Origin: Verrucomicrobiota bacterium
GTDB taxonomy: Bacteria; Verrucomicrobiota; Verrucomicrobiia; Verrucomicrobiales; Akkermansiaceae
DNA: 64,000 bases
Direction of reading: 5' to 3'
Assembly (NCBI GenBank): GCA_030835305.1
Contig: JAURPJ010000131.1
Coordinates: 1 to 64,000, forward strand
The notes below the pieces were generated by a model, which saw nothing but the letters and a program-made list of their open reading frames with translations, ran no database searches and was not told the DNA's origin. Of this stretch, positions 2,001 to 41,591 are shown in pieces. Each line of letters begins with the position of its first letter. Position 1 is the first letter of the stretch. The translations under genes were made by a program, and so were the position numbers.

Positions 2001-3392
2001 ATGATCCTTCTCAAGAATATGAGTAACCTCGCCGCCCTTCCCTCCGTCGAAAAACTGGCCTCTTCACTCGCCCGGGAGGTGTCGCTTCCGCGACCGCTGG
2101 TCAATCTCTTTGTACGCCGGGAAATCGAACGCTTCCGCCAGCTCCTCCTCGCCGGTGGGGACCATAACCGGGAAGAGATCGAGAAAGCGACCAGACAGGG
2201 ATTGATCGAGTTTGCCAACTCAAGGCTCCAACCCGTCATCAATGCCACCGGCGTCCTCATTCACACCAACCTCGGACGTTCACCGCTGGGTCCGCGCGCC
2301 GCGAAAGCTCTTGAAAAAATTGCAACCGGCTACTCGAACCTGGAGTTTGATCTCCCCTCCGGCGCTCGCGGGAAGCGGGCCAGCTATCTCGAAACCGCCC
2401 TCGCCTGCCTGCTCGAAACCGAAGCCGCGACCGCCGTCAACAATTGCGCCGCCGCCCTAGTACTTACCTTGCGGACTCTCGTCGAAGAAGGGAAAAACGA
2501 AGTCATCGTTTCACGATCCGAGCTCGTGGAAATCGGTGGCGGATTCCGGATTCCGGAAATTCTTGAAACCTCCGGAGCGAAGCTCGTGGAGGTGGGAGCG
2601 ACCAATAAAACGCACCTCTGCGATTACGAAAAAGCGATCACGCCTCAAACCGCGCTCATTCTCAAAGTCCACCGTTCGAACTTCTACATTGATGGCTTCA
2701 CCGGCGAACCCGAAATCCCTGAGATTGCCAGGTTGGCCCACGACCACGGCCTTCCACTCGTTGAAGATCTTGGCTCGGGAGCGATGATGAATACCAACGA
2801 ACTGGCACCAATCGAACACGAGCCGACTCCCCAGGAATGTCTGCGTCGTGGCATCGATCTCGTCATTTTTTCCGGGGACAAGCTCCTTGGCGGCCCGCAA
2901 TCCGGGATCATCGGAGGCCGTGCCGACATGGTGGCAAAGATCAAAAAGGAGCCCTTTTTTCGGGCTGTCCGCTGCGACAAGCTCATCCTGACCACCTTGC
3001 AGGAATCGATCGATCAGTATCTCGAAACGAAAGCGGATCCTACAAAGGCCGATGTCCCTGTCTTGAAGTTTCTCCGCACTTCAGTTGATGAGCTCCGACA
3101 GCGTGCCGAACAGATCATCGCGAAACTTGGCACCGAGCACACGAAGATCTCCATCGAAGAAACCACCGCCCGCCCCGGCGGCGGAACAATGCCCCGGAGT
3201 GAATTCCCTTCCATCGCGATCAAGCTGGCGCCAAAGACCCAATCGGTGCCGAAACTCGCTAGAAAACTACGTCTCGGAGGACCCGCGATCGTCGGCTACA
3301 CCACTGACGACGCGCTTTACCTCGATCTTCGGACCGTTTTCCCTGAGACCGATGCACAGGTTAAAACAGCTCTGGAATCAGCCCTGGCTTAA
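2001..3392 (+). CDS. selA: L-seryl-tRNA(Sec) selenium transferase SelA
   Basis: This PLP enzyme converts seryl-tRNA(Sec) to selenocysteyl-tRNA(Sec) using selenophosphate. The length of 463 residues is normal for SelA. The N-terminal domain reads LPSVEKLAS..., followed by the family motif PVINATGVLIHTNLGRSPL. The PLP lysine lies in SGDKLLGGPQSGII (K294 from the first ATG), as in E. coli SelA. An in-frame ATG at 2019 (MSNLAALPSV) is an alternative start that would also fit homologues. The gene converges with accA and their stop codons overlap. selB, selC and selD are not in the window. The gene implies that the organism makes selenoproteins, which matters for the gene at 32567. Confidence 0.97.
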   Translation: MILLKNMSNLAALPSVEKLASSLAREVSLPRPLVNLFVRREIERFRQLLLAGGDHNREEIEKATRQGLIEFANSRLQPVINATGVLIHTNLGRSPLGPRAAKALEKIATGYSNLEFDLPSGARGKRASYLETALACLLETEAATAVNNCAAALVLTLRTLVEEGKNEVIVSRSELVEIGGGFRIPEILETSGAKLVEVGATNKTHLCDYEKAITPQTALILKVHRSNFYIDGFTGEPEIPEIARLAHDHGLPLVEDLGSGAMMNTNELAPIEHEPTPQECLRRGIDLVIFSGDKLLGGPQSGIIGGRADMVAKIKKEPFFRAVRCDKLILTTLQESIDQYLETKADPTKADVPVLKFLRTSVDELRQRAEQIIAKLGTEHTKISIEETTARPGGGTMPRSEFPSIAIKLAPKTQSVPKLARKLRLGGPAIVGYTTDDALYLDLRTVFPETDAQVKTALESALA

Positions 3393-26398: not shown

Positions 26399-26490
26399 GG
26401 CCCCCGGCAGTCCAAGGACGACCCTAACACTTGTCAAGCTCCCTTGAAACTTCCCAAGCCCGCCTTCCGTAACTTACGTTGCAAAAAGCC

Positions 26491-29400
26491 ATGTCTCGCA
26501 AACTTCTTCTTTCACTCTCCGCCATCCTTCCTCTTGGTGCCCAGCTCGTCCCTTCCCAGCTCGACAGAAAAATCACCATTCCCGAGGGACTGACACTCAA
26601 GCGCTTCGCCGACCAAAACCAGGTCCAGAATGCCACCGCGATCTGCCTCGACGCCCAAAACCGCGTCTACATTGCTGAAACCAATCGCTGGCGCGTCCAG
26701 GTTCAGGACATCCGCCACGGGGGGAAATTCCTGCGGGACCGCGTGAACGGAGACATTTCCTCCATGACTCTCGAAGACCGCACCGCCTTCCACCAAAAAT
26801 GGTCCGGCAAGGGACAGGACTTCCTGACTTGGGAGGAATTCACGAAGGATTCCGAAGTCATCAAAATGCTTGAGGACACCGATGGCGACGGAGTCTCGGA
26901 CAAAACCACCGTTTTTCGCGGCGACTTCAACGACCCTCTCGCGGGCCCTTCCGGTGGCCTCATCGAAAAAGACGGCACTGTTTACTTCGCGATGATTCCC
27001 GGGATTTATAGCCTTAGGGACACCAACAACGACGGGAAAGCCGAGGAGATAAAAACTTTGGTAAACGGCTTCGGGGTGCGTGTCAGCTTCTCCGGCCACG
27101 ATCTCAATGGCTTCGCTTGGGGGCCCGACGGCAAAATCTACTGGTCCATCGGCGACCGCGGATATCATGTCGAGCAAGATGAAAAAACCTTCGCGCGCCC
27201 CGATTCTGGCGGCGTTTTCCGGGCCAACCCCGACGGCTCGGAGTTCGAGGAATTTTACATCAACCTCCGCAACCCCAAGGAGATCGTCTTTGACGAATTT
27301 GGCAATCTCTTCACAGTCGACAATGACTACGACCAAGGGGATCGCGAGCGTATTGTCTACCTCGTCCAACACGGCGACTCCGGTTGGAAAATGGGGCACC
27401 AAACCATGACCTCTTTTGGTGGCACCGTTTACAACCATATCGGGGGCAAACCTCCGCGCAAAGAAGATCACATTGACGCGTGGATGAACGAAGGTCTCTG
27501 GAACACCCGGCACGACCGCCAACCCGCATACATCAACCCACCCATCGCCTACAGTGCGAACGGACCGTGCGGACTTGCCTACAATCCCGGCATCGTCGGA
27601 CTTCCCGAAAAATTCAACCGCAACTTCTTCTTTGCCAGCTACGTTGCCGGCCCCGACCGCTGCCTCATCGAGCGCTTCACCCTCAACCCCGACGGCGCTA
27701 ATTTTGAACTTGGCGAGCAGACCAACTTCCTTAAAGGAATCGCCGTCACCGACCTCGACTGGGGTTACGATGGAAAGCTCTACATTGCCGACTACGGCGG
27801 CGGCTGGACCAAGTCCGGCAAAGGCAATGTTTACACCCTCGCCGACACCGAAAAGCTCAAGTCTCCAGCTATCAGAGAAGTAAAAGAATTGTTTGCAAAC
27901 GGTATCCCAACTCTCCAGTCAGACCAGCTTTTTGAATTCCTCGCCCACCCCGACCAGCGTGTCCGCCAGCGGGCGCAGTTCGCACTTGCCGAGCGCGATC
28001 TCGATTCACTTCCGCTATTCAAAAAAGCGACTAAGCCTGATCAGCCGCTCATGCGACGCATCCACGGAATCTGGGGAATCGGCCAGCTTGCTCAGAAAAA
28101 CCCCTCCGCACTCAATTCCCTCACGAGTCTGATCGGAGACCAGGAAATGGAAGTCCGTGCCAATCTTGCCCGCACTCTCGGAAATCACGGCAAACACCTT
28201 GCTCCCTTCCGCAAGGCTCTCATTGCGATGCTTCAGGATTCCTCGCCGCGTGTTGCCTCTCTCGCCGCCATCGCCCTAGCCAATCACGGCCACCAGGACG
28301 CCATCGCTCCTGCTCTAGCGATGCTTGAAAAGAACAACGACAAGGACATTGTCGTCCGCCACTCCGGCATCATGATGCTCGCAAAGTGCGCCGGGAATGA
28401 GGACCTATTTCTTCTAGCCGGGAACCCTTCAGCCGCAGTCCGCCGAGCAGCAGTCGTCGCCCTTCGACGTCAGAAATCACCTCTACTCCAGCACTTCTTC
28501 GCCGACCCTGAGGAGTCGGTGCGACAGGAAGCAATCCGAGCCGCCTACGAAATGGATGTGCGTGAGACATACCCGGAGCTCTCCAAGCTAGCACATGATA
28601 TCGCTTTGAGGGTCAGCCCAGGCATCAAGTGGCACCCCCTCACTGCACGTCGCGCCATTTTCGCTGGTTGGGTTCTTGGCCAAAAAGAAAACGCACAGCT
28701 CATTGCGAAAATCGCCTCGGACCCCAAGGTTGATTTCCGTGTTCGCAAGGACGCAATTATTGCCCTCCTTGAATGGAACAACCCACCCGTTCCCGATCCC
28801 GTCACCGGCTTTGCCCGAACTCTTCCCGACAACCGTATCAAGTTGGATACCTCCATCATTGAAAACCTAAAAGACCTCCTTGATGGTAAAGATGAAAACT
28901 CGAGGAAGCTCATTCCTCGAGCGCTCACTCTCTCCGAGCAGGACAATATGCCCCTCGGTGAACTCCGACTCACCCGCTACTTGAAAAATGACAAATACTC
29001 TGAGGACGCTCGAGCCCAATCGATTAAGCTCCTCGCTCCACTCAAAAAAGCAGATGCCATTTGGCCCTTTACTCTTCAGGAACTCTTTACCGACAAAAGC
29101 GACAAGGTCCGCAGCATGGCCCGGGAACTTCTCTTCAGAGTCGATCCTGACCGCGCAACCGCCCAGCTTGGGAATCTCCTCTCCAGCGAAAGCGCCACCT
29201 TGAACGAAAAGCAACTCACTCTTGAGACGCTGACCAAACTGAAAACACCAAAGGCGAAGGAAATGATCCAAGCTGCCCTTGACCAACTGATCGCTCGAAA
29301 AGCGGACTCCGGTCTCGCCCTCGATATCGTCACCGCCGCCGAAAAGGCCGGTCTCTCGCTCGATCAATTCCGCGCGTCCCTCGCCAAAGACGATCCTAAC

Positions 29401-29871
29401 GCCGAGTGGGATCTCCTCTGCCGGGACGGCGGAGATATTCAACTTGGCAAGAAGGTGTTTTACGAGCACGGAGCCGCGCAGTGCCAGCGCTGCCACACCA
29501 TGCACGGAGTCGGGGGCGACGTCGGCCCCGAGCTCGGAGCCATCGGCAAAAAGCACGATGCCACATACCTCCTCCGCTCCCTCGTCAATCCTGGGGCGGA
29601 AGTCGCCGACGGGTACGGCCTCGGCACCATCACCCTCAAGGACGGCACCGAAATCAGCGGAAACTTCATGCCTGACGATAAAGACGGGAATGCCGTAATT
29701 AACTTTGCCGAAACCACCAAAATTATCAAAAAATCGACCATTGCTAAAAAGAGCAAGCCGGTTTCAGCCATGCCGCCCATGACCGCCCTCCTTAGTAAAC
29801 AAGAAGCCCGTGACCTCGTGGCCTTCCTCGTTTCCTGCAAGAAAGATAAGACCGACGAAGGACACAAATAG
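26491..29871 (+). CDS. PVC-type secreted beta-propeller/HEAT/cytochrome c protein
   Basis: This 1126-residue exported protein has a signal peptide (SRKLLLSLSAILPLGAQ). Residues about 25-450 form a sorbosone-dehydrogenase/NHL-like beta-propeller (GFAWGPDGKIYWSIGDRGYH, VFDEFGNLFTVDNDYDQGD) with two calcium-loop-like inserts (DTDGDGVSD, DTNNDGKAEE). Residues about 480-950 are HEAT-like repeats. Residues about 985-1120 form the PVC haem-binding domain with CQRCH at 998-1002 and LLRSLVNPGAEVADGYG. In PVC bacteria such proteins are often annotated as putative membrane-bound dehydrogenases, and electron donor and substrate are unknown. The start ATG 26491 is preferred over TTG 26479. A smaller relative follows at 29987. 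Confidence 0.88.
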   Translation: MSRKLLLSLSAILPLGAQLVPSQLDRKITIPEGLTLKRFADQNQVQNATAICLDAQNRVYIAETNRWRVQVQDIRHGGKFLRDRVNGDISSMTLEDRTAFHQKWSGKGQDFLTWEEFTKDSEVIKMLEDTDGDGVSDKTTVFRGDFNDPLAGPSGGLIEKDGTVYFAMIPGIYSLRDTNNDGKAEEIKTLVNGFGVRVSFSGHDLNGFAWGPDGKIYWSIGDRGYHVEQDEKTFARPDSGGVFRANPDGSEFEEFYINLRNPKEIVFDEFGNLFTVDNDYDQGDRERIVYLVQHGDSGWKMGHQTMTSFGGTVYNHIGGKPPRKEDHIDAWMNEGLWNTRHDRQPAYINPPIAYSANGPCGLAYNPGIVGLPEKFNRNFFFASYVAGPDRCLIERFTLNPDGANFELGEQTNFLKGIAVTDLDWGYDGKLYIADYGGGWTKSGKGNVYTLADTEKLKSPAIREVKELFANGIPTLQSDQLFEFLAHPDQRVRQRAQFALAERDLDSLPLFKKATKPDQPLMRRIHGIWGIGQLAQKNPSALNSLTSLIGDQEMEVRANLARTLGNHGKHLAPFRKALIAMLQDSSPRVASLAAIALANHGHQDAIAPALAMLEKNNDKDIVVRHSGIMMLAKCAGNEDLFLLAGNPSAAVRRAAVVALRRQKSPLLQHFFADPEESVRQEAIRAAYEMDVRETYPELSKLAHDIALRVSPGIKWHPLTARRAIFAGWVLGQKENAQLIAKIASDPKVDFRVRKDAIIALLEWNNPPVPDPVTGFARTLPDNRIKLDTSIIENLKDLLDGKDENSRKLIPRALTLSEQDNMPLGELRLTRYLKNDKYSEDARAQSIKLLAPLKKADAIWPFTLQELFTDKSDKVRSMARELLFRVDPDRATAQLGNLLSSESATLNEKQLTLETLTKLKTPKAKEMIQAALDQLIARKADSGLALDIVTAAEKAGLSLDQFRASLAKDDPNAEWDLLCRDGGDIQLGKKVFYEHGAAQCQRCHTMHGVGGDVGPELGAIGKKHDATYLLRSLVNPGAEVADGYGLGTITLKDGTEISGNFMPDDKDGNAVINFAETTKIIKKSTIAKKSKPVSAMPPMTALLSKQEARDLVAFLVSCKKDKTDEGHK

Positions 29872-29986: not shown

Positions 29987-32485
<2,499 letters not shown>

Positions 32486-32566
32486 GGATCGGGATTACTG
32501 AAACCACATTGAATTAACTTTTTTGATTGTCAGATGGGATCAGCCCGGCCCAACCTGCACCCAATC

Positions 32567-33334
32567 ATGAAGTTAAGACACTTTTTGCTAATCGCGTGCC
32601 TCCCCGTCACTGCGGTGTTCGGAGAAATGCGCACCTACACCAGCAAGGATGGCCAAAAGACCTTCCGCGGTGAACTCATTGAGTATGAGTCATCGACAAA
32701 GAAAGCAAAGATGCGCATGGCGCGAGGGAAAGTTCTCACCTTCTCAATCAATGTCCTCTCAAAGGAAGATCAGAAGTATGTTGAGGAGCAAGGTCCGATC
32801 GTTCAGGCCAAAAAAGCGCTCTCGATAGAGACCAAACATTACAGTAAGCGAACCGAAAAAAACAAGCCCGCCCAGGGTCAGTGGTATTTCGAAAAATTCG
32901 ATCATAACTACATCGTCACCGTTGAGAACAAGCGCGACGAGATGTTAAGGGATGTGACGGTCGAGTATACCTTCTTTATCGAGCGCAATCGCCGTGAATA
33001 TCAAAACAAGATCGAAAAAGTCAGCGGTTCCGACACTATTGATTTGGTTCTATCCAACGGGACGGAAACGATCACGACCAAGAGCGCCAATCTGGAATCG
33101 TGGAGCGATAATCCCGTGATGCCCGCCGGCGGCGGCGGCGGATGATGTTTCACCGAAGATCCCTACGGTCTGTGGGGAACATTCAACCAGCCTCCGATCA
33201 TGGTCAAAGGCGGTAAGAGTAAATATAGAGACAAGCTTCTTGGCCTCGTGGTTCATCTCAAGGTGAACGGCGAAATCATCAAGACCGGTTCCAGTAACGA
33301 CAAAGTCCTCGCGATGTCCGAGGACACCGAGTAA
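32567..33334 (+). CDS. Candidate exported SHD1-domain selenoprotein (in-frame TGA = Sec193)
   Basis: The start at ATG 32567 gives a signal peptide (KLRHFLLIACLPVTAVFG). Residues about 21-70 resemble the SHD1 (SLA1 homology 1) domain common in PVC secreted proteins (RTYTSKDGQKTFRGELIEY...LSKEDQKYVEEQ). A beta-rich domain follows. TGA at 33143-33145 interrupts the frame at codon 193, within PAGGGGG-TGA-CFTEDPYGLWG. The frame then stays open for 62 codons to TAA 33332-33334, giving 255 residues with a Sec-Cys pair in a Gly-rich loop. A hand count gives about two thirds G/C at third positions after the TGA. A SECIS-like hairpin follows the TGA, a terminator follows the TAA, and selA is in this window. 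If TGA is read as stop, the product is 192 residues (33145 end). No function is known; Sec-Cys suggests a redox or metal site. Confidence 0.72.
33161..33177 (+). promoter_or_regulatory. Putative bacterial SECIS element
   Basis: The RNA CCCUAC-GGUCU-GUGGGG folds into a 6-bp stem (one U-G) with a 5-nt loop, and U33160-A33178 extends it to 7 bp. The loop starts 21 nt after the TGA. In known bacterial SECIS elements the apical loop lies about 16-37 nt after UGA and has G in its first two positions. In E. coli fdhF the SelB-contacting loop is also GGUCU, 18 nt after UGA. The match in loop sequence, spacing and in-frame position is the main evidence that codon 193 is Sec. Confidence 0.7.
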
Positions 33335-33359: not shown

Positions 33360-33385
33360 AAGGTCACCTCCGGGTGGCCTTTTTA
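33360..33385 (+). terminator. Intrinsic terminator after the extended selenoprotein frame
   Basis: AAGGTCACC (33360-33368), loop TCCG and GGTGGCCTT (33373-33381) form a 9-bp stem followed by a T run. It lies 25 bp after the TAA at 33332-33334 and about 215 bp after the TGA, so the transcript is organised around the longer frame. Confidence 0.85.
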
Positions 33386-33520: not shown

Positions 33521-36500
33521 ATGCACAAAAAGCTTTCTAACCCCGACCGCCCTTCACGCGACCTAACGCGGAACCTCGCCACTCTTGTTTGCTTGGTGGG
33601 CGGAGCCCTCGCACACGGACAGGAAGCCCCCATTATCAGCGAATTCATGGCGAGCAACGATGAAACTCTCGTCCTCGATAATGGCGAAAGCCCTGACTGG
33701 ATCGAGCTCTATAATCCCGGCACAGCGAGTGTCGATTTGGCCGGTTGGAGCCTCTCTGATAATGCGGCAAGCCTCGATAAATGGAGTTTCCCTGCCGGCG
33801 TTTTGATCCCGGCTGGAGGATACCTTTTAATTTATGCCAGCGGACAAGACCTCCGCAATCCGGCAGAGGAGCTCCACACCAATTTCAGCCTGAGCCAAGA
33901 TGGTGAATTTCTTGCCTTGGTCAATCCGCAGGGAGAGATGGCCCAACAGGCTTTTACACCCGCTTACCCGGAACAGCTCACTGATGTCTCCTTTGGAATT
34001 GCCTCAGGTCAGACCGAACCGGCCTACTTCACAAACCCGACTCCGGGCGAAGCTAACAATGACTCGATCCTTGGCTTTGTAAAAGATACTTCGTTTAGCC
34101 ACAAGCGAGGCTTCTTCGATGAGCCGTTTCAACTCGAAGTCACCTCGGCAACTCCGGGTGCTTCAATTTACTACACCACTGATGGATCGGATCCCGGTCC
34201 GACCAGCTCATCTATTGACGCTCCGGATCCCGACAGTCCGCCCGTCCTCTCATTGGCGGTTAGCACCACCACAATCGTGCGTGCCTACGCCGCCAAGCCC
34301 GGGTTTAAAAAGACCAACACCGATACCCAGTCCTACTTTTTCCTTGATGAGGTCATCAGCAATCCGGCCATGGCCACTTCGGTTACCGAACACCCGGTTT
34401 GGGGGCCGCAAATGCGTGACGCTCTTCTTGAGATCCCTACAATTTCATTGGTCACCCAGGAAGCAATCCCAACCCAGCCCATTATGAGCCCTCCGGAGAT
34501 TCCGGTCTCCATTGAGATGATCTTCCCGGATGGACGCGACGGCTTCCAACTCGACGCCGGAGCCGAACGTTTTGGCGGGCAATACACCGTTTACGACAAG
34601 AACGCACTCCGTATCAGCTTCAAGGAGATCTATGGCAAGAAAAAGCTGAAATTCGACCTATTTAGCGACACTCCCTATGGGGGCGATACCGCCGTTGACA
34701 GCTTTGATCAAATCCTCCTGCGAAACGGAAGTCACGATTCCCTCTTCGCGACCAATTACTCTCATTCACGGGGAGTTTATTTTCGCAATCGTTACTTCTT
34801 CGATCGCCAGCTTGAAGCCGGTCACCTTTCCATGAGAGGCAGGTTTGTCCACGTCTATTTGAACGGCACTTACTACGGCCAGCATCACCTCATGGAGAGG
34901 CCCAATGCTGATTTCATGGCAACTCATCTCGGCGGAGAAGAAGAGGAATATGACATTATGAAGGGCCGCAGCGGCATCTTTGTTTCCCAAGGCGAAGGCA
35001 CAGCTTGGAACTTTCTTAATGCTAATAAGAACAATTATGAAGTCGTAAAAGACTACATAAACATCGATAACTACATCGACTACATGCTCCTCAACTTCTA
35101 CGGAGGAAATGAACACGATTGGTATCCTCAACACAACTGGGTCGCGGGACGCAGGCGGGTGGACGGAGGAAAGTTTAACTTCTTCATGTGGGACAATGAC
35201 TTTCTGATTCGTCGCGGCGGGAATTCGACGACCCCCTCACCCGCAAACACCACAGACAACGGCGGTCCCGGCAACATGTGGAGCACCCTCATCAGGCTTC
35301 CCGAATTCAAAACCCGGGTTGCCGATCGCGTCCAAAAGCATTTCTACAATGGTGGCATGCTCACAAAGGAAAGGGTTCAATCTGACATCACCGAATTGGC
35401 GGAAAGAATATCCAGAACGATTATTCCCGAGTCAGCCAGATGGGGCACCAAAGCGCCCCAACTCTACACACCCAGCTTGTTCCAGTCTTATGTCGATTGG
35501 ATTGTCGATATCAATGCGGTATCACGCACCAACATCGTGCTGGGACAGATGCGTTCAGCTGGCTTTCTTCCGGACACTGCTGCTCCTGAATTTAATCAGA
35601 ACGGCGGAGAGATTCCCCCCGACTTTCCACTGCTCATCACTCATACCGATGGTGATCTCTACTACACGACCGATGGGACGGACCCACGACTGGAAGGGAA
35701 TGGGATCAACCCGACGGCACAACTGGTCGAAGCCAACATCGAGGTCTTTCCGGCCGGCTCATCGTGGAAGTATGACGACTCGGGATCCGAAAATGACAGC
35801 GATTGGAAAAACTCACAATTTGACGATACGACCTGGAAGGAAGGCCCGGCCCCCCTCGGTTTTGGAAATATCACCAACACCACGGTCGCGACCCCTGTTA
35901 ATTCCAGCATTCCGCGAAAGGTCACCGTCTATTTTAGGAAAACCTTTGAGATATCAAACCCAGATTCAATCAGCACCGGATTTATCGACCTTCATGCCGA
36001 CGGTGGCGCTGTTGTTTACGTGAATGGCACCGAAGTTCTGCGGGACAATATGCCGGTCGGCGTGATCACACCTGAAACGCTCTCAACCTCCGACGGCAAC
36101 GAAGGCGTTTTTGATACCTTCAGTTTCGATGGAGCCCTGCTATCCGAGGGAGGGAACCTAATCACCGTGGAACTGCACAACCGGTCGGCTGGCAGCAGTG
36201 ATATGGTCTTTGACCTTAAACTCAGCTATGAAAGCAACAATCGTACCGCGGCCATCCCCATCAACGGAACCCAACAAATTAAGGCACGTGTTCTCAACGA
36301 AAATGAATGGAGCGCACTCAACGAAGCGGTATTCATCAGCGACCAACCGGCATCCTCCTCTAATCTCGTCATTTCCGAAATCCACTACAACCCCAGTGAT
36401 GAGCAAGGAGGTGGCTCCGAGTTTATCGAACTGATGAACATTTCCAAACAAACCATCAGCCTTGCCGGAGTTTCGTTTACCGGGGGGATCACTTTCACCT

Positions 36501-37147
36501 TCGATAACGCGGCAACTTTGCCTGCCTCTCAGCAAATCGTCCTGGTTTCGGATCCGGCCGCCTTCGCAGCAATCTACGGCAATGACTTTCCGATCGGTGG
36601 TGTCTACACCTCAAAGCTCGCAAATAACGGAGAGCGAATCACCCTCGCTGGTGCCGATGGCATCGTAATCCAATCCTTGCGTTTCAACGACAAAAGCCCA
36701 TGGCCTTCGGCGGCCGACGGATCCGGCTATTCACTCACCCTCGCCTCAGCTCGTAGCAACCCCGATCCATCACTTCCCCAAAACTGGCGAACCAGCCTAG
36801 AAATCGGAGGATCCCCTCTCGTCGAAGATTCGTTCCCCCTTGATATTCAGTCCCCCGAAGACCTTCTTTACGCTGTCACGGGATCGGGGGCGCCGCCTGT
36901 CCTGACATTTACGAATGGCCAACTGATTTTCGAACACCAACGGCTACACGGCGCCGACTCAGCCACTTTGGTGGTGGAATATTCGACAGATCTTGAGAAC
37001 TGGAGTTCGGAAGGTCTGACTTTTCTCGACCAAATAAACACCGGTATCGGTAGTTCCGGCCTTACCGGATCAAAGCTTAGCTGGGGCCTACCCTCCAGGC
37101 TTGGTCAACGTGTCTTCGCCCGGATTAAAGCGACAATGATAGAATAA
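33521..37147 (+). CDS. Secreted CotH-kinase/lamin-tail domain protein
   Basis: The 1208-residue protein has a signal region (TLVCLVGGALAHG). Domains in order are a lamin-tail domain at about 37-165 (ISEFMASNDETLVLDNGESP), then a chitobiase-like bridging segment (ASIYYTTDGSDPG). A CotH-type kinase-like region occupies about 330-680, with ISFKEIYGKKKLKFDLF, LRNGSHDSLFATNYSHSRG, VYLNGTYYGQHHLMERPN and KFNFFMWDNDFLI. A second bridging motif (LYYTTDGTDPRLEG), a jelly-roll-like region at about 740-900 and a second lamin-tail domain at about 930-1060 (VISEIHYNPSDEQGGGSEF) follow. CotH proteins are atypical protein kinases of spore coats in Bacillus; the PVC paralogues are extracellular, with unknown substrates. 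Confidence 0.88.
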   Translation: MHKKLSNPDRPSRDLTRNLATLVCLVGGALAHGQEAPIISEFMASNDETLVLDNGESPDWIELYNPGTASVDLAGWSLSDNAASLDKWSFPAGVLIPAGGYLLIYASGQDLRNPAEELHTNFSLSQDGEFLALVNPQGEMAQQAFTPAYPEQLTDVSFGIASGQTEPAYFTNPTPGEANNDSILGFVKDTSFSHKRGFFDEPFQLEVTSATPGASIYYTTDGSDPGPTSSSIDAPDPDSPPVLSLAVSTTTIVRAYAAKPGFKKTNTDTQSYFFLDEVISNPAMATSVTEHPVWGPQMRDALLEIPTISLVTQEAIPTQPIMSPPEIPVSIEMIFPDGRDGFQLDAGAERFGGQYTVYDKNALRISFKEIYGKKKLKFDLFSDTPYGGDTAVDSFDQILLRNGSHDSLFATNYSHSRGVYFRNRYFFDRQLEAGHLSMRGRFVHVYLNGTYYGQHHLMERPNADFMATHLGGEEEEYDIMKGRSGIFVSQGEGTAWNFLNANKNNYEVVKDYINIDNYIDYMLLNFYGGNEHDWYPQHNWVAGRRRVDGGKFNFFMWDNDFLIRRGGNSTTPSPANTTDNGGPGNMWSTLIRLPEFKTRVADRVQKHFYNGGMLTKERVQSDITELAERISRTIIPESARWGTKAPQLYTPSLFQSYVDWIVDINAVSRTNIVLGQMRSAGFLPDTAAPEFNQNGGEIPPDFPLLITHTDGDLYYTTDGTDPRLEGNGINPTAQLVEANIEVFPAGSSWKYDDSGSENDSDWKNSQFDDTTWKEGPAPLGFGNITNTTVATPVNSSIPRKVTVYFRKTFEISNPDSISTGFIDLHADGGAVVYVNGTEVLRDNMPVGVITPETLSTSDGNEGVFDTFSFDGALLSEGGNLITVELHNRSAGSSDMVFDLKLSYESNNRTAAIPINGTQQIKARVLNENEWSALNEAVFISDQPASSSNLVISEIHYNPSDEQGGGSEFIELMNISKQTISLAGVSFTGGITFTFDNAATLPASQQIVLVSDPAAFAAIYGNDFPIGGVYTSKLANNGERITLAGADGIVIQSLRFNDKSPWPSAADGSGYSLTLASARSNPDPSLPQNWRTSLEIGGSPLVEDSFPLDIQSPEDLLYAVTGSGAPPVLTFTNGQLIFEHQRLHGADSATLVVEYSTDLENWSSEGLTFLDQINTGIGSSGLTGSKLSWGLPSRLGQRVFARIKATMIE

Positions 37148-38370: not shown

Positions 38371-39771
38371 GTGAAGACTCTGCTGATTGTTGACGATGAA
38401 AAAGCGACACGCGATGCGCTAAGAATGGCTCTCGAGGATAGCTTTGACTGCTACGTCGCTGCTGATCTCAAACAAGCCATTCAGGTGCTCAATTCCGAAG
38501 ACGTTGACCTCCTCCTCACAGATCTTCGTCTCGGCGCAGATTCCGGGATGGAGGTGCTCGATTCCGCTCTGGCCCTTCCCCATCCGCCGGTCTCGCTCAT
38601 GATGACCGCCTATGGCTCGGTCAACACTGCAGTGGAAGCGATGCGGCGGGGAGCCTGGCACTTTGTAACAAAGCCACTGAATCTCGATGAAGTGGAGCTG
38701 CTCTTGAAGCGGGCTGTTCGCAACCGAACGCTGGAAAAGGAAAACGTCAAGCTGGTCGCCGAAAATGAAACGCTCAAGGAAAGCAAGGCCAGAGCGTCGC
38801 ATGGTCTCGGGCGCCTGATTGGACGATCCCCCCAAATGGCCAAAGTTGCCGCCAAGATCGAACAAATCGCTCCGACCCGCGCAACCGTTCTCATTGAGGG
38901 AGAATCCGGAACAGGCAAGGAAGTGGTCGCACACACCCTCCACGACCTTTCCGGGCGCCCAGGGGAAAAATTTATGGCAGTAAATTGCGCCGCCCTTTCC
39001 TCCCAGCTTCTTGAAAGCGAACTATTTGGTCACGAAAAGGGTTCCTTCACCGGAGCCTCGCAACGTCGGGTGGGAAGATTTGAACAAGCTAACGGCGGGA
39101 CTCTCTTCCTGGATGAGATCGGAGAAATCGACGCTCAAACCCAGGTCAAACTACTCCGGGCACTTTCCGAACGAACCATCGAGCGGGTTGGCTCAAACTC
39201 CCCGATTAAAGTCGATGTTCGCATCATTACTGCGACCAACCGTCGGCTGGCGGAGATGGTTGAGGAAGGAACCTTCCGCGAGGATCTTTACTTTAGACTT
39301 AATGTTTTGGGCATCATCATGCCGCCCCTCCGTGAGCGAAAAGAGGACGTCGTTCTGCTCGCAAATTCGTTTCTATCGGAATTTGCCCGTGAAAACGGTC
39401 GCCCTGAGAAGCCTCTCACGGAAGCAGCAATGACCTGCCTGCTGGGATACAACTGGCCTGGAAATGTTCGGGAGCTTCGGACCGCCATCGAACATGCCGT
39501 GGTAATGTCGAATCAGGATGTCCTCGATATTCAGCACCTCCCGGACTTCGTGACAGGAGGTGGGCACCACTTCGAATCATCTTCACTAAAAAACACCCTT
39601 GCTCCCAAGGAAGAATTCAACTTGCATGCCCTTGAGCAACGGGCGATTCAAGGCGCACTGCGGGTCACGGACGGAAATCGGACGAAAGCCGCAGAACTAC
39701 TTGGAGTCAGCCGGCGCACCCTTCAAAGAAAACTTCGCGCCATTACGCTTATTGATCCACACACATCATGA
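38371..39771 (+). CDS. Sigma-54-dependent response regulator, NtrC family
   Basis: The start is GTG. The receiver domain has phospho-acceptor Asp51 (LLLTDLRLG). The AAA+ domain has Walker A GESGTGKE at 178-185, the sigma-54 contact loop as GSFTGA at 225-230 (common variant of GAFTGA), Walker B GTLFLDEIGE and the arginine-finger region FREDLYFRLNVL. A C-terminal Fis-type helix-turn-helix follows (GNRTKAAELLGVSRRTLQRKL). It is the cognate partner of the kinase upstream and activates sigma-54 promoters. Target genes are not evident from the window. The stop overlaps the next start codon (ATGA). Confidence 0.96.
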   Translation: MKTLLIVDDEKATRDALRMALEDSFDCYVAADLKQAIQVLNSEDVDLLLTDLRLGADSGMEVLDSALALPHPPVSLMMTAYGSVNTAVEAMRRGAWHFVTKPLNLDEVELLLKRAVRNRTLEKENVKLVAENETLKESKARASHGLGRLIGRSPQMAKVAAKIEQIAPTRATVLIEGESGTGKEVVAHTLHDLSGRPGEKFMAVNCAALSSQLLESELFGHEKGSFTGASQRRVGRFEQANGGTLFLDEIGEIDAQTQVKLLRALSERTIERVGSNSPIKVDVRIITATNRRLAEMVEEGTFREDLYFRLNVLGIIMPPLRERKEDVVLLANSFLSEFARENGRPEKPLTEAAMTCLLGYNWPGNVRELRTAIEHAVVMSNQDVLDIQHLPDFVTGGGHHFESSSLKNTLAPKEEFNLHALEQRAIQGALRVTDGNRTKAAELLGVSRRTLQRKLRAITLIDPHTS

Positions 39772-41591
39772 CTAGTTCCAATAAAGTCGGCGGCTTCGAC
39801 AGCGCCGTGCTGATTCGTCGCCTCCTCTTCTTTGTTCTCCTTTTTGGATTGGTATTTTTTTATCTGATCCTGACGTTCAAAGGTCTCACCTCGGCCAAGG
39901 GAATCGAACAGGCTCAAATTGGCCGTGAAATTGCCCGGGGCAACAACTCAACCACAAAGGTCATTCGTCCCGCTGCAGTTTGGCAGGCGGAAAAAAATGA
40001 AAAGGAGGAAATTGACCTCAGTGCTTTTCATGACACCTACCATTCTCCCCTAAACCCTTACGTTTACGGGGCTGTATTGAAAGCTGTCGGAGGAGATGAC
40101 TTCAAAAAATTCCAAATGAAAGAGGACAAGAACACGGTTTACGCCCTCGATCGCGTGATCTCAGCCGTCTCAGTAATCCTATTTCTCGTTGCCGTAGGTA
40201 TCAATTACCTACTTATCTCGCGGATTTTCGACGTCAAAATCGCAGGAGTTACCGCTCTCCTCATGATTCTCAGCGAACTGATGTGGCAATTTACCCAGAC
40301 CGGGCTGCCCCAGATGCTCATGCTCCTGCTTTTTTCCTGTGCGCTTTTCTTCATATACCGGACGTTGGAGGCCTCGATCGAGAATCGCGCCGCCACCGGC
40401 TCGATCCTAACTGCCGCGGTCTTTCTTTCACTTCTAGCTCTTTCCCACTGGCTGACCATTTGGATCACCTTGGGCTTCGTCATTTATGCCGCCTTCTTTT
40501 TCCGTCCCAAGGGGATTTCCGGCTTTATAATTCTGGGAGTGCTTCTTGTCTTTAACCTCTACTTCATCGGCAAAAACATGGAGTGGACCGGAAATCCCGG
40601 AGGAACTGCATTTTTGACTCTCTACGGAGGACTCAGTGAATCAGAGGCAGGAATCATGCGGACCAGCGATCCGGGCGAGCAAACCTACCAAATCGTCTAT
40701 AATCTTAATTCTTTCCTGATTAACACTGCTGCCAACATGCTACGTCAGGTCAATGAACTTTATAATAACCTCGGCGCCATCCTGGTGGCACCGCTCTTCT
40801 TCTTTGCACTTCTCCACCCATTCAAACGCGAAGCAATCGCCAAGTTCCGTTGGATTGTTCTTCTGATGTGGATTATGGGCGCTCTGGGAATGGCTACTTT
40901 TGGACTTTCGTATAGCGCGCTCGACGCGAACCAACTCCACGTCCTTTTCGCTCCGGTCATGACCGCTTATGGTTTGGCATTCGTCTCTATCCTGTGGGCA
41001 CGGATCGACCTGCCGGCCGGGAGCGCCCTGATGCGATATGGCCACTTCGTTATCGTCGTTCTCATCAGTGCGGGCCCCTTGATCTTGACGATTCCCCGGG
41101 GCCTAACCCAGGCCATCGCAACGCAGGACCGTGCCAAAGCCGTCTGGCCCCCCTATTGGCCTCCGGTCTTTAGCAAGACTCTTCATGATGCCACCACGGA
41201 GAACGAGATCATCTTCTCGGATCAACCGTGGGCGGTTGCCTGGTATGCGGATAGGATCTCGGTTTGGCTTCCAAGAAAAATCGAAGAATTCGAAGACCTT
41301 GAGCTTCTTGTAGATGATCAGGAACTCTCGGTTGCGGGCATCGTTATCACCCCCATGTCGTTTCAGGAGAGCGTTCTTTACAGCCCGACACCCTTCGGCT
41401 TACGGGAGGACTTTTCGCCCCTCATGCTGGACGGCCCGGCCCGCGGCGCGACGGATGGAGCACTTCGGGCAGGAGGTCTACCAATGATGACCAGTGGCCT
41501 TTCCCAAGTGATGTCCAAATATCCGGAAGTCAACGACATCTTCCAAAACAGGATTTACTTCTACTCCAAGAAGCGCCTTTTCACCAGGTAA
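39768..41591 (+). CDS. Polytopic membrane protein, GT-C/glycosyltransferase-39-like
   Basis: The 607-residue protein has about 10-11 membrane segments (for example LIRRLLFFVLLFGLVFFYLI and SAVSVILFLVAVGINYLLIS). The first periplasmic loop carries AQIGREIARGN...AFHDTYHSPLNPYVYGAVL, a layout like GT-C enzymes of the PMT/ArnT group, in which loop-1 acidic residues bind the lipid-linked sugar. A C-terminal soluble region of about 130 residues follows the last helix. It is translationally coupled to the NtrC-type regulator. The GT-C assignment is by topology and motif outline only; a transport or polymer-related role is possible. Confidence 0.6.
   Translation: MTSSNKVGGFDSAVLIRRLLFFVLLFGLVFFYLILTFKGLTSAKGIEQAQIGREIARGNNSTTKVIRPAAVWQAEKNEKEEIDLSAFHDTYHSPLNPYVYGAVLKAVGGDDFKKFQMKEDKNTVYALDRVISAVSVILFLVAVGINYLLISRIFDVKIAGVTALLMILSELMWQFTQTGLPQMLMLLLFSCALFFIYRTLEASIENRAATGSILTAAVFLSLLALSHWLTIWITLGFVIYAAFFFRPKGISGFIILGVLLVFNLYFIGKNMEWTGNPGGTAFLTLYGGLSESEAGIMRTSDPGEQTYQIVYNLNSFLINTAANMLRQVNELYNNLGAILVAPLFFFALLHPFKREAIAKFRWIVLLMWIMGALGMATFGLSYSALDANQLHVLFAPVMTAYGLAFVSILWARIDLPAGSALMRYGHFVIVVLISAGPLILTIPRGLTQAIATQDRAKAVWPPYWPPVFSKTLHDATTENEIIFSDQPWAVAWYADRISVWLPRKIEEFEDLELLVDDQELSVAGIVITPMSFQESVLYSPTPFGLREDFSPLMLDGPARGATDGALRAGGLPMMTSGLSQVMSKYPEVNDIFQNRIYFYSKKRLFTR

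Follow-up and report, generated by a model that had tools for sequence, protein, structure and literature searches.

Prokaryotic selenoproteins were brought together in a 2026 catalogue of 119 families, most of which are thioredoxin-like (PMC13188914, Table 1). The catalogue includes a selenoprotein with a UGC motif that belongs to DUF1573 (PF07610), and according to the bSECIS model the hairpin that follows the UGA has a stem of 4-16 bp, a loop of 3-9 nt with a G in the first two positions, a distance of 16-37 nt from the UGA and an MFE of at most -7.5 (PMC13188914).

In the window (the whole stretch of 64,000 nucleotides analysed here) we found a gene in which a single frame of 255 codons (32567-33331) spans an in-frame TGA, the codon at which mechanical gene finding terminates the ORF (Table 1). 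The TGA is followed by TGT and 61 further codons (62 sense codons in total) before a TAA is reached, and reading the frame from the ATG at 32567 confirmed this continuation, which the initial annotation had described. That start agrees better with the homologues than the one at 32534; in one of them (L008) a stop lies just 5' of the equivalent Met. The TGA is almost certainly a selenocysteine codon in a putatively exported protein, and insertion of Sec at residue 193 is very strongly indicated by the comparisons described below.

Table 1. Features of the predicted selenoprotein locus and of related genes in the window.
Feature	Position	Strand	Basis or remark
Predicted selenoprotein gene	32567..33334	+	255 codons including putative Sec193; TAA at 33332-33334; 8 genus homologues with the same TGA and tail
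TGA, predicted to encode Sec193	33143..33145	+	TGA in 9/9 close genes; aligned with Cys in distant homologues
Putative partner Cys194 (TGT)	33146..33148	+	kept in 9/9 close genes
Signal-peptide-like N-terminus, residues 1-19	32567..32623	+	MKLRHFLLIACLPVTAVFG, hydrophobic in homologues
SHD1-like (SH3-type) domain, residues 20-84	32624..32818	+	model m27fcb7ed36c5, pLDDT 71
Modelled Ig-like beta-sandwich, residues 85-242, interrupted by the predicted Sec loop	32819..33292	+	model m7714eda076ff
Low-confidence glycine-rich loop, residues 184-218, with predicted GGGGG-Sec-Cys	33116..33220	+	pLDDT <50
Bacterial SECIS-type hairpin UCCCUAC[GGUCU]GUGGGGA	33160..33178	+	codons frozen in nine genes; loop 21 nt past the UGA
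Intrinsic terminator	33360..33381	+	RNA fold
selA, L-seryl-tRNA(Sec) selenium transferase	2001..3392	+	PF03841 E 5e-124
PVC-type heme-binding CxxCH protein	26479..29871	+	conserved synteny
Second PVC-type heme-binding CxxCH protein	29987..32485	+	ends 81 nt before the predicted Sec gene

A search of 27 genomes of the genus showed that the gene is present in nine of them, that of the window included, at 69-100% identity (69-96% for the eight relatives). All nine genes have the TGA at the identical place and the same tail, and the actual stop varies between TAA, TAG and TGA. When the window gene was paired with relatives 79-96% identical to it, dN/dS downstream of the TGA was 0.06-0.11, compared to 0.03-0.10 upstream for the same pairs where dS was computable; for the most distant of the nine (L014) the downstream value was 0.14-0.34. 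Over the hairpin (codons +1 to +11) the codons of all eight invariant residues were identical in the nine genes, compared to 9 of the 97 upstream (Fisher p 9e-8). These frozen codons are a constraint on the RNA that is added to the constraint on the protein. Four further genomes of the genus contain a distant member (about 28% identity) with a TGA in the same loop, which reads SGGG-U-GGAPC.

Both a SECIS-like hairpin 3' of the TGA and an intrinsic terminator 3' of the TAA had been proposed initially, and both were confirmed. The hairpin agrees with the published bSECIS model in its stem (7 bp), loop (GGUCU), distance (21 nt) and energy (-9.6 to -10.4 kcal/mol); the 28-nt segment that contains it reaches -10.4 kcal/mol (z -2.2 relative to shuffled sequences). 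GGUCU is also the loop of the fdhF element of Escherichia coli. Of the first 34 TGA-containing homologues, 31 had a GGUC loop closed by a stem of 5 bp or more at 15-27 nt, compared to 5 of 9,976 other codon positions of the same genes. Across the order a hairpin with a GGUC, AGUU or GGUU loop was found 15-28 nt 3' of the UGA in 64 of 69 genes, compared to 46 of 18,207 other codon positions; these hairpin statistics are optimistic, as the loop set was picked after the sequences had been viewed and as the genes share ancestry; the effect is nevertheless very large. The stems vary among subfamilies and show compensating pairs at positions 2-7 between them: each of pairs 3-7 occurs in several Watson-Crick types, pair 2 in two.

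The hairpin by itself is not decisive, since two further TGAs on the minus strand of the window (34768 and 28372) equal its stem-pairing score. An RNA fold of 48-51 nt prefers a longer competing structure over the short hairpin, which we chose because it is frozen in the nine genes and because its loop type is common to the subfamilies. For two members (L016 and L074) the wider fold was no better than shuffles, so that energy alone would not support the hairpin there, and in another Sec member (L076 of G200) the UGA and the hairpin with the GGUC loop are 45 nt apart, more than the usual 16-37 nt. Rfam matched one tRNA only in the window and left the hairpin unmatched. Of the 69 genes, 25 have GGA and 24 have ACA directly before the last UGA while the adjacent Gly codons vary, and an upstream codon-context preference before the UGA is possible.

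The searches across the bacterial family and the order yielded 69 TGA-bearing genes, the translations of which were inspected, in five families of one order; the members named in public records belong to Akkermansiaceae and to other Verrucomicrobia MAGs. The internal codon is TGA in all 69, and their terminal stops are TAA (32), TAG (23) or TGA (14). The arrangement in the loop is UC in 34, CxxxxU in 15, UxxxxC in 6 and CU in 3, with six cases of two Sec residues 5-9 residues apart, one each of UU, CxxU and C-6-U, and two with Sec alone. A partner Cys or Sec is thus found in the loop of 67/69 proteins, at a spacing of 0 to 9, and is absent in L072 (U-Ser) and L142. Six members (L133, L136, L147, L149, L151 and L155) carry two TGAs in frame within the loop, separated by 5-9 codons. 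In the double-TGA members there is one clear hairpin, located after the second TGA, which implies that the first UGA would depend either on this hairpin from farther away or on an element of its own. L161 (G238) has a tandem in-frame TGATGA at positions 793-798 in its loop (GGUUGAPG), followed by a GGUC-loop hairpin, and is predicted to contain a Sec-Sec pair.

Cys replaces Sec in several relatives (L059, L067, L068, L090, L096 and others), although the loop alignment is gappy and the column is least certain for CxxC. The loops of Cys-only relatives read for instance GGGCRGGSC, GGCSSGGC, CPKC or CPTC, with CC in G215. Motif-less relatives with the same two domains occur throughout the phylum and keep the last strands that correspond to the tail after the TGA, from which it follows that the tail is part of the domain. 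The pair is not essential to the fold, as there is a motif-less group with neither Cys nor Sec and there are two Sec members without a partner. A tree of 60 members, which predates the order-wide sampling and does not contain the members found there, implied at least four Sec/Cys changes among members with either residue, with the deep branches weakly placed. The TGA column therefore holds TGA or Cys, or the loop lacks the motif, and the tail is conserved, which supports the original reading of TGA as Sec; the genus, family and order searches recovered no homologue that stops at the TGA position. We consider it probable that these genes form an uncatalogued, order-wide selenoprotein family whose scaffold is Ig-like and not of thioredoxin type. 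A single loop would be an open site for a chalcogen pair, in which Sec and Cys vary over evolution in number, order and spacing, and the SECIS is held nearly fixed relative to the last UGA.

The Sec machinery is in line with this. The selA gene had been recognized in the window, an assignment that PF03841 bears out, and the genome further encodes selB (contig C111), a tRNA-Sec with anticodon UCA (C43) and selD (C27), so that both selB and selC are present. The selD gene (L057, G000:C27:15132-16061) itself has an in-frame TGA, and its product is probably a selenoprotein too. Overall, selB was found in 54 of 63 genomes with a TGA form and in none of 23 with only Cys or motif-less forms; two selB-positive genomes in which the only forms at the thresholds used were non-TGA (G211, motif-less, and G215, Cys-Cys) and six more TGA genomes, all selB-positive, fall outside this comparison. 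Within the bacterial family the counts were 31/33 versus 0/10 (the latter from genera g6 and g8), and in the rest of the order 23/30 (one match just below the curated cut-off) versus 0/13. The nine TGA-form genomes without a selB match are all 54-86% complete. In G715 selB and the homologue share a strand, with 112 nt from selB to the start of the homologue downstream.

The model of the N-terminal domain is an SH3-type barrel plus a helix, based, like the other structure predictions, on seven close sequences. Its top PDB match in Foldseek was 2hbp (prob 1.00, E 0.019, TM 0.53), whereas Pfam SHD1 (PF03983) did not match the window protein and gave 16.3-16.6 bits for two related proteins, below the gathering value of 23.7. 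The SHD1 domain of the initial annotation thus holds at the level of fold likeness and not as a Pfam match. Residues 85-242 were modelled as strands plus two helices outside the core of the Sec domain, with a pLDDT of mostly 65-83 outside the loop (64 for the full-length model), and in the PDB they best matched Ig-like domains from GH2 enzymes (Z as high as 10.3, with an rmsd of 3.3 across 105 residues). No thioredoxin match was found with Pfam in the window protein, and the modelled fold is not that of thioredoxin. Full-length Foldseek matches to arrestins and transglutaminases had TM-scores near 0.2 and were not used. Export is inferred from the N-terminus; a lipoprotein reading of its LIAC was dropped, as L012 has no Cys there.

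Two genes encoding PVC-type heme-binding CxxCH (c-type cytochrome-like) proteins were found just upstream of the Sec gene in all seven genomes examined. These neighbours are compatible with an extracytoplasmic electron-transfer setting, of which they are no proof; within short flanks, no upstream cytochrome genes were found in other subfamilies. On the downstream side the gene adjoins one with a CotH/LTD domain (33521-37147), which has the same place in only two of six relatives examined; in the other four a sensor kinase gene (37174 in the window) follows soon downstream of the Sec gene. Elsewhere in the window (39768-41591) an ORF of 607 residues with no Pfam or NCBIfam match lies between a sigma-54 response regulator gene and dxs.

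In the mechanism that we propose, SelB, helped by the hairpin, would have UGA 193 read as Sec, after which translation would proceed for 62 codons to the TAA. Sec193-Cys194 would then be placed on a flexible Gly-rich loop before the last strands, and the selenol/thiol pair could switch reversibly to and from a selenenylsulfide, thereby reducing or undergoing exchange with a partner or oxidant outside the cytoplasm; the SHD1-like domain may provide the docking module.

A true stop followed by an untranslated tail, or a sequencing error or pseudogene lesion, is what the ORF closed by mechanical gene finding would suggest, but the independent MAGs serve in effect as resequencing, the identical TGA recurs in nine independent assemblies, the tail is under purifying selection and its strand is conserved in TGA-less relatives, which leaves this explanation a negligible chance. 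Decoding of the TGA as Trp, Cys or another residue through leaky termination or an altered code would account equally well for a tail that, with dN/dS well below 1, was evidently translated over evolution. It does not account for a bSECIS-type hairpin after 64/69 UGAs, for the co-occurrence with selB or for Cys at the column in selB-less lineages; moreover, TGA serves as a normal stop in other places, at the end of some of the tails (L009, L013) among them, and no Trp was seen at the column, so that we regard such decoding as very improbable. The initial reading of the gene as a selenoprotein is therefore supported and was even understated, and we have good confidence in a selenoprotein with a working Sec/Cys pair.

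As to what the pair does, the near-universal partner (67/69) together with the CC, CxxC and CxxxxC of Cys-only forms points to two residues that either form a selenenylsulfide or disulfide bond with each other or jointly bind a soft metal. A role as ligand for a soft metal or metalloid (copper, mercury, arsenic or similar) instead of a redox centre would suit the varied order and spacing (UC, CU, UU, UxxxxC, CxxxxU, U...U) in a disordered loop, and in the catalogue a metal-binding name is given to known families such as MbdU, which has a CU motif (PMC13188914). Nevertheless, the loop showed no conserved His, Asp or Met co-ligand, redox centres have CxxC and vicinal pairs just as commonly, and the neighbours are heme proteins and not metal resistance genes, so that we hold this role to be possible and the less likely of the two. 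A non-catalytic role as a cross-link, structural or intermolecular, in a surface protein is rather unlikely: the combination of Ig-like and SH3-like domains is typical for modules with a structural or binding task and the protein is inferred to be exported with a loop modelled as disordered, but Sec is costly and rarely structural, Cys would do equally well and the partner is absent in two Sec members. We therefore lean, by a modest preference, towards a redox role, ahead of metal binding and, after that, of the cross-link. The spacing of 0-9 between partners is unusual for a catalytic thiol pair and counts against this redox role, and the variable spacing would fit a flexible arm better than a rigid active site.

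Since a UGA is called as a stop, selenoproteins are concealed by annotation, and members of this family would be cut short in databases. The family is widespread in one order of the Verrucomicrobia and has no Pfam or NCBIfam model. It would set Sec in an Ig-like scaffold, in one loop of which nature has produced a range of Sec/Cys exchanges and double-Sec forms. This makes it suited to studying why Cys gives way to Sec, how the position of Sec shifts in evolution and how SelB handles two UGAs with one hairpin; if the tandem UGA-UGA is decoded, it would provide a natural adjacent Sec-Sec pair. Sequence-profile searches of Pfam, NCBIfam release 20 and the PDB assigned no family to the members tested. 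Among the 119 catalogued families no NCBIfam or Pfam model matched, with entries without a model compared by motif and name only. A full-text literature search for SHD1 with selenoprotein or selenocysteine returned nothing, with preprints, most subscription papers and the unvalidated candidates of a groundwater MAG survey outside its scope.

The genome of the window also contains one copy (L002, G000:C11:89468-89704) of a second kind of selenoprotein, found in addition elsewhere in the genus (L020, L021, L023, L024, L028, L032 and L033) and as L113 and L117, in which an SHD1-like N-terminal domain precedes a thioredoxin-like domain with UGPC or UPPC. It shares with the family described here the same sort of N-terminal domain, and most of its members have an AGUU-containing hairpin after the UGA; it differs in its C-terminal domain, which is thioredoxin-like (PF13905, E 1e-10 to 4e-14) and of the known UxxC selenoprotein sort.

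The N-terminal domain resembles Sla1 homology domain 1 (2hbp) at 25% identity over 55 columns, although with an E-value of only 0.019 and with PF03983 unmatched. The Ig-like domain matches in fold Amuc_1102 of Akkermansia muciniphila (PDB 7dsz; Z 8.6 over 130 residues), the source of which shares its bacterial family with the relatives named Akkermansiaceae, but the identity is 12%, the rmsd is 6.1 and a sequence profile misses it; to our knowledge no Sec is known in Amuc_1102. DUF1573 is a beta-sandwich, and its selenoprotein is similar to the window protein in having a nearby Cys and a non-thioredoxin domain, whereas the window protein has no Pfam DUF1573 match. With the catalogued families in general the window protein has in common the UGA-encoded Sec, the bSECIS hairpin and the nearby Cys, and CU, UxC, UGC and double-Sec motifs occur there, but no entry combines an SHD1-like with an Ig-like architecture or has a GGGGGUC loop (PMC13188914). 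The reading of UGA as Sec is established, and what appears new is the family itself, together with its scaffold and a loop in which Sec and Cys drift.
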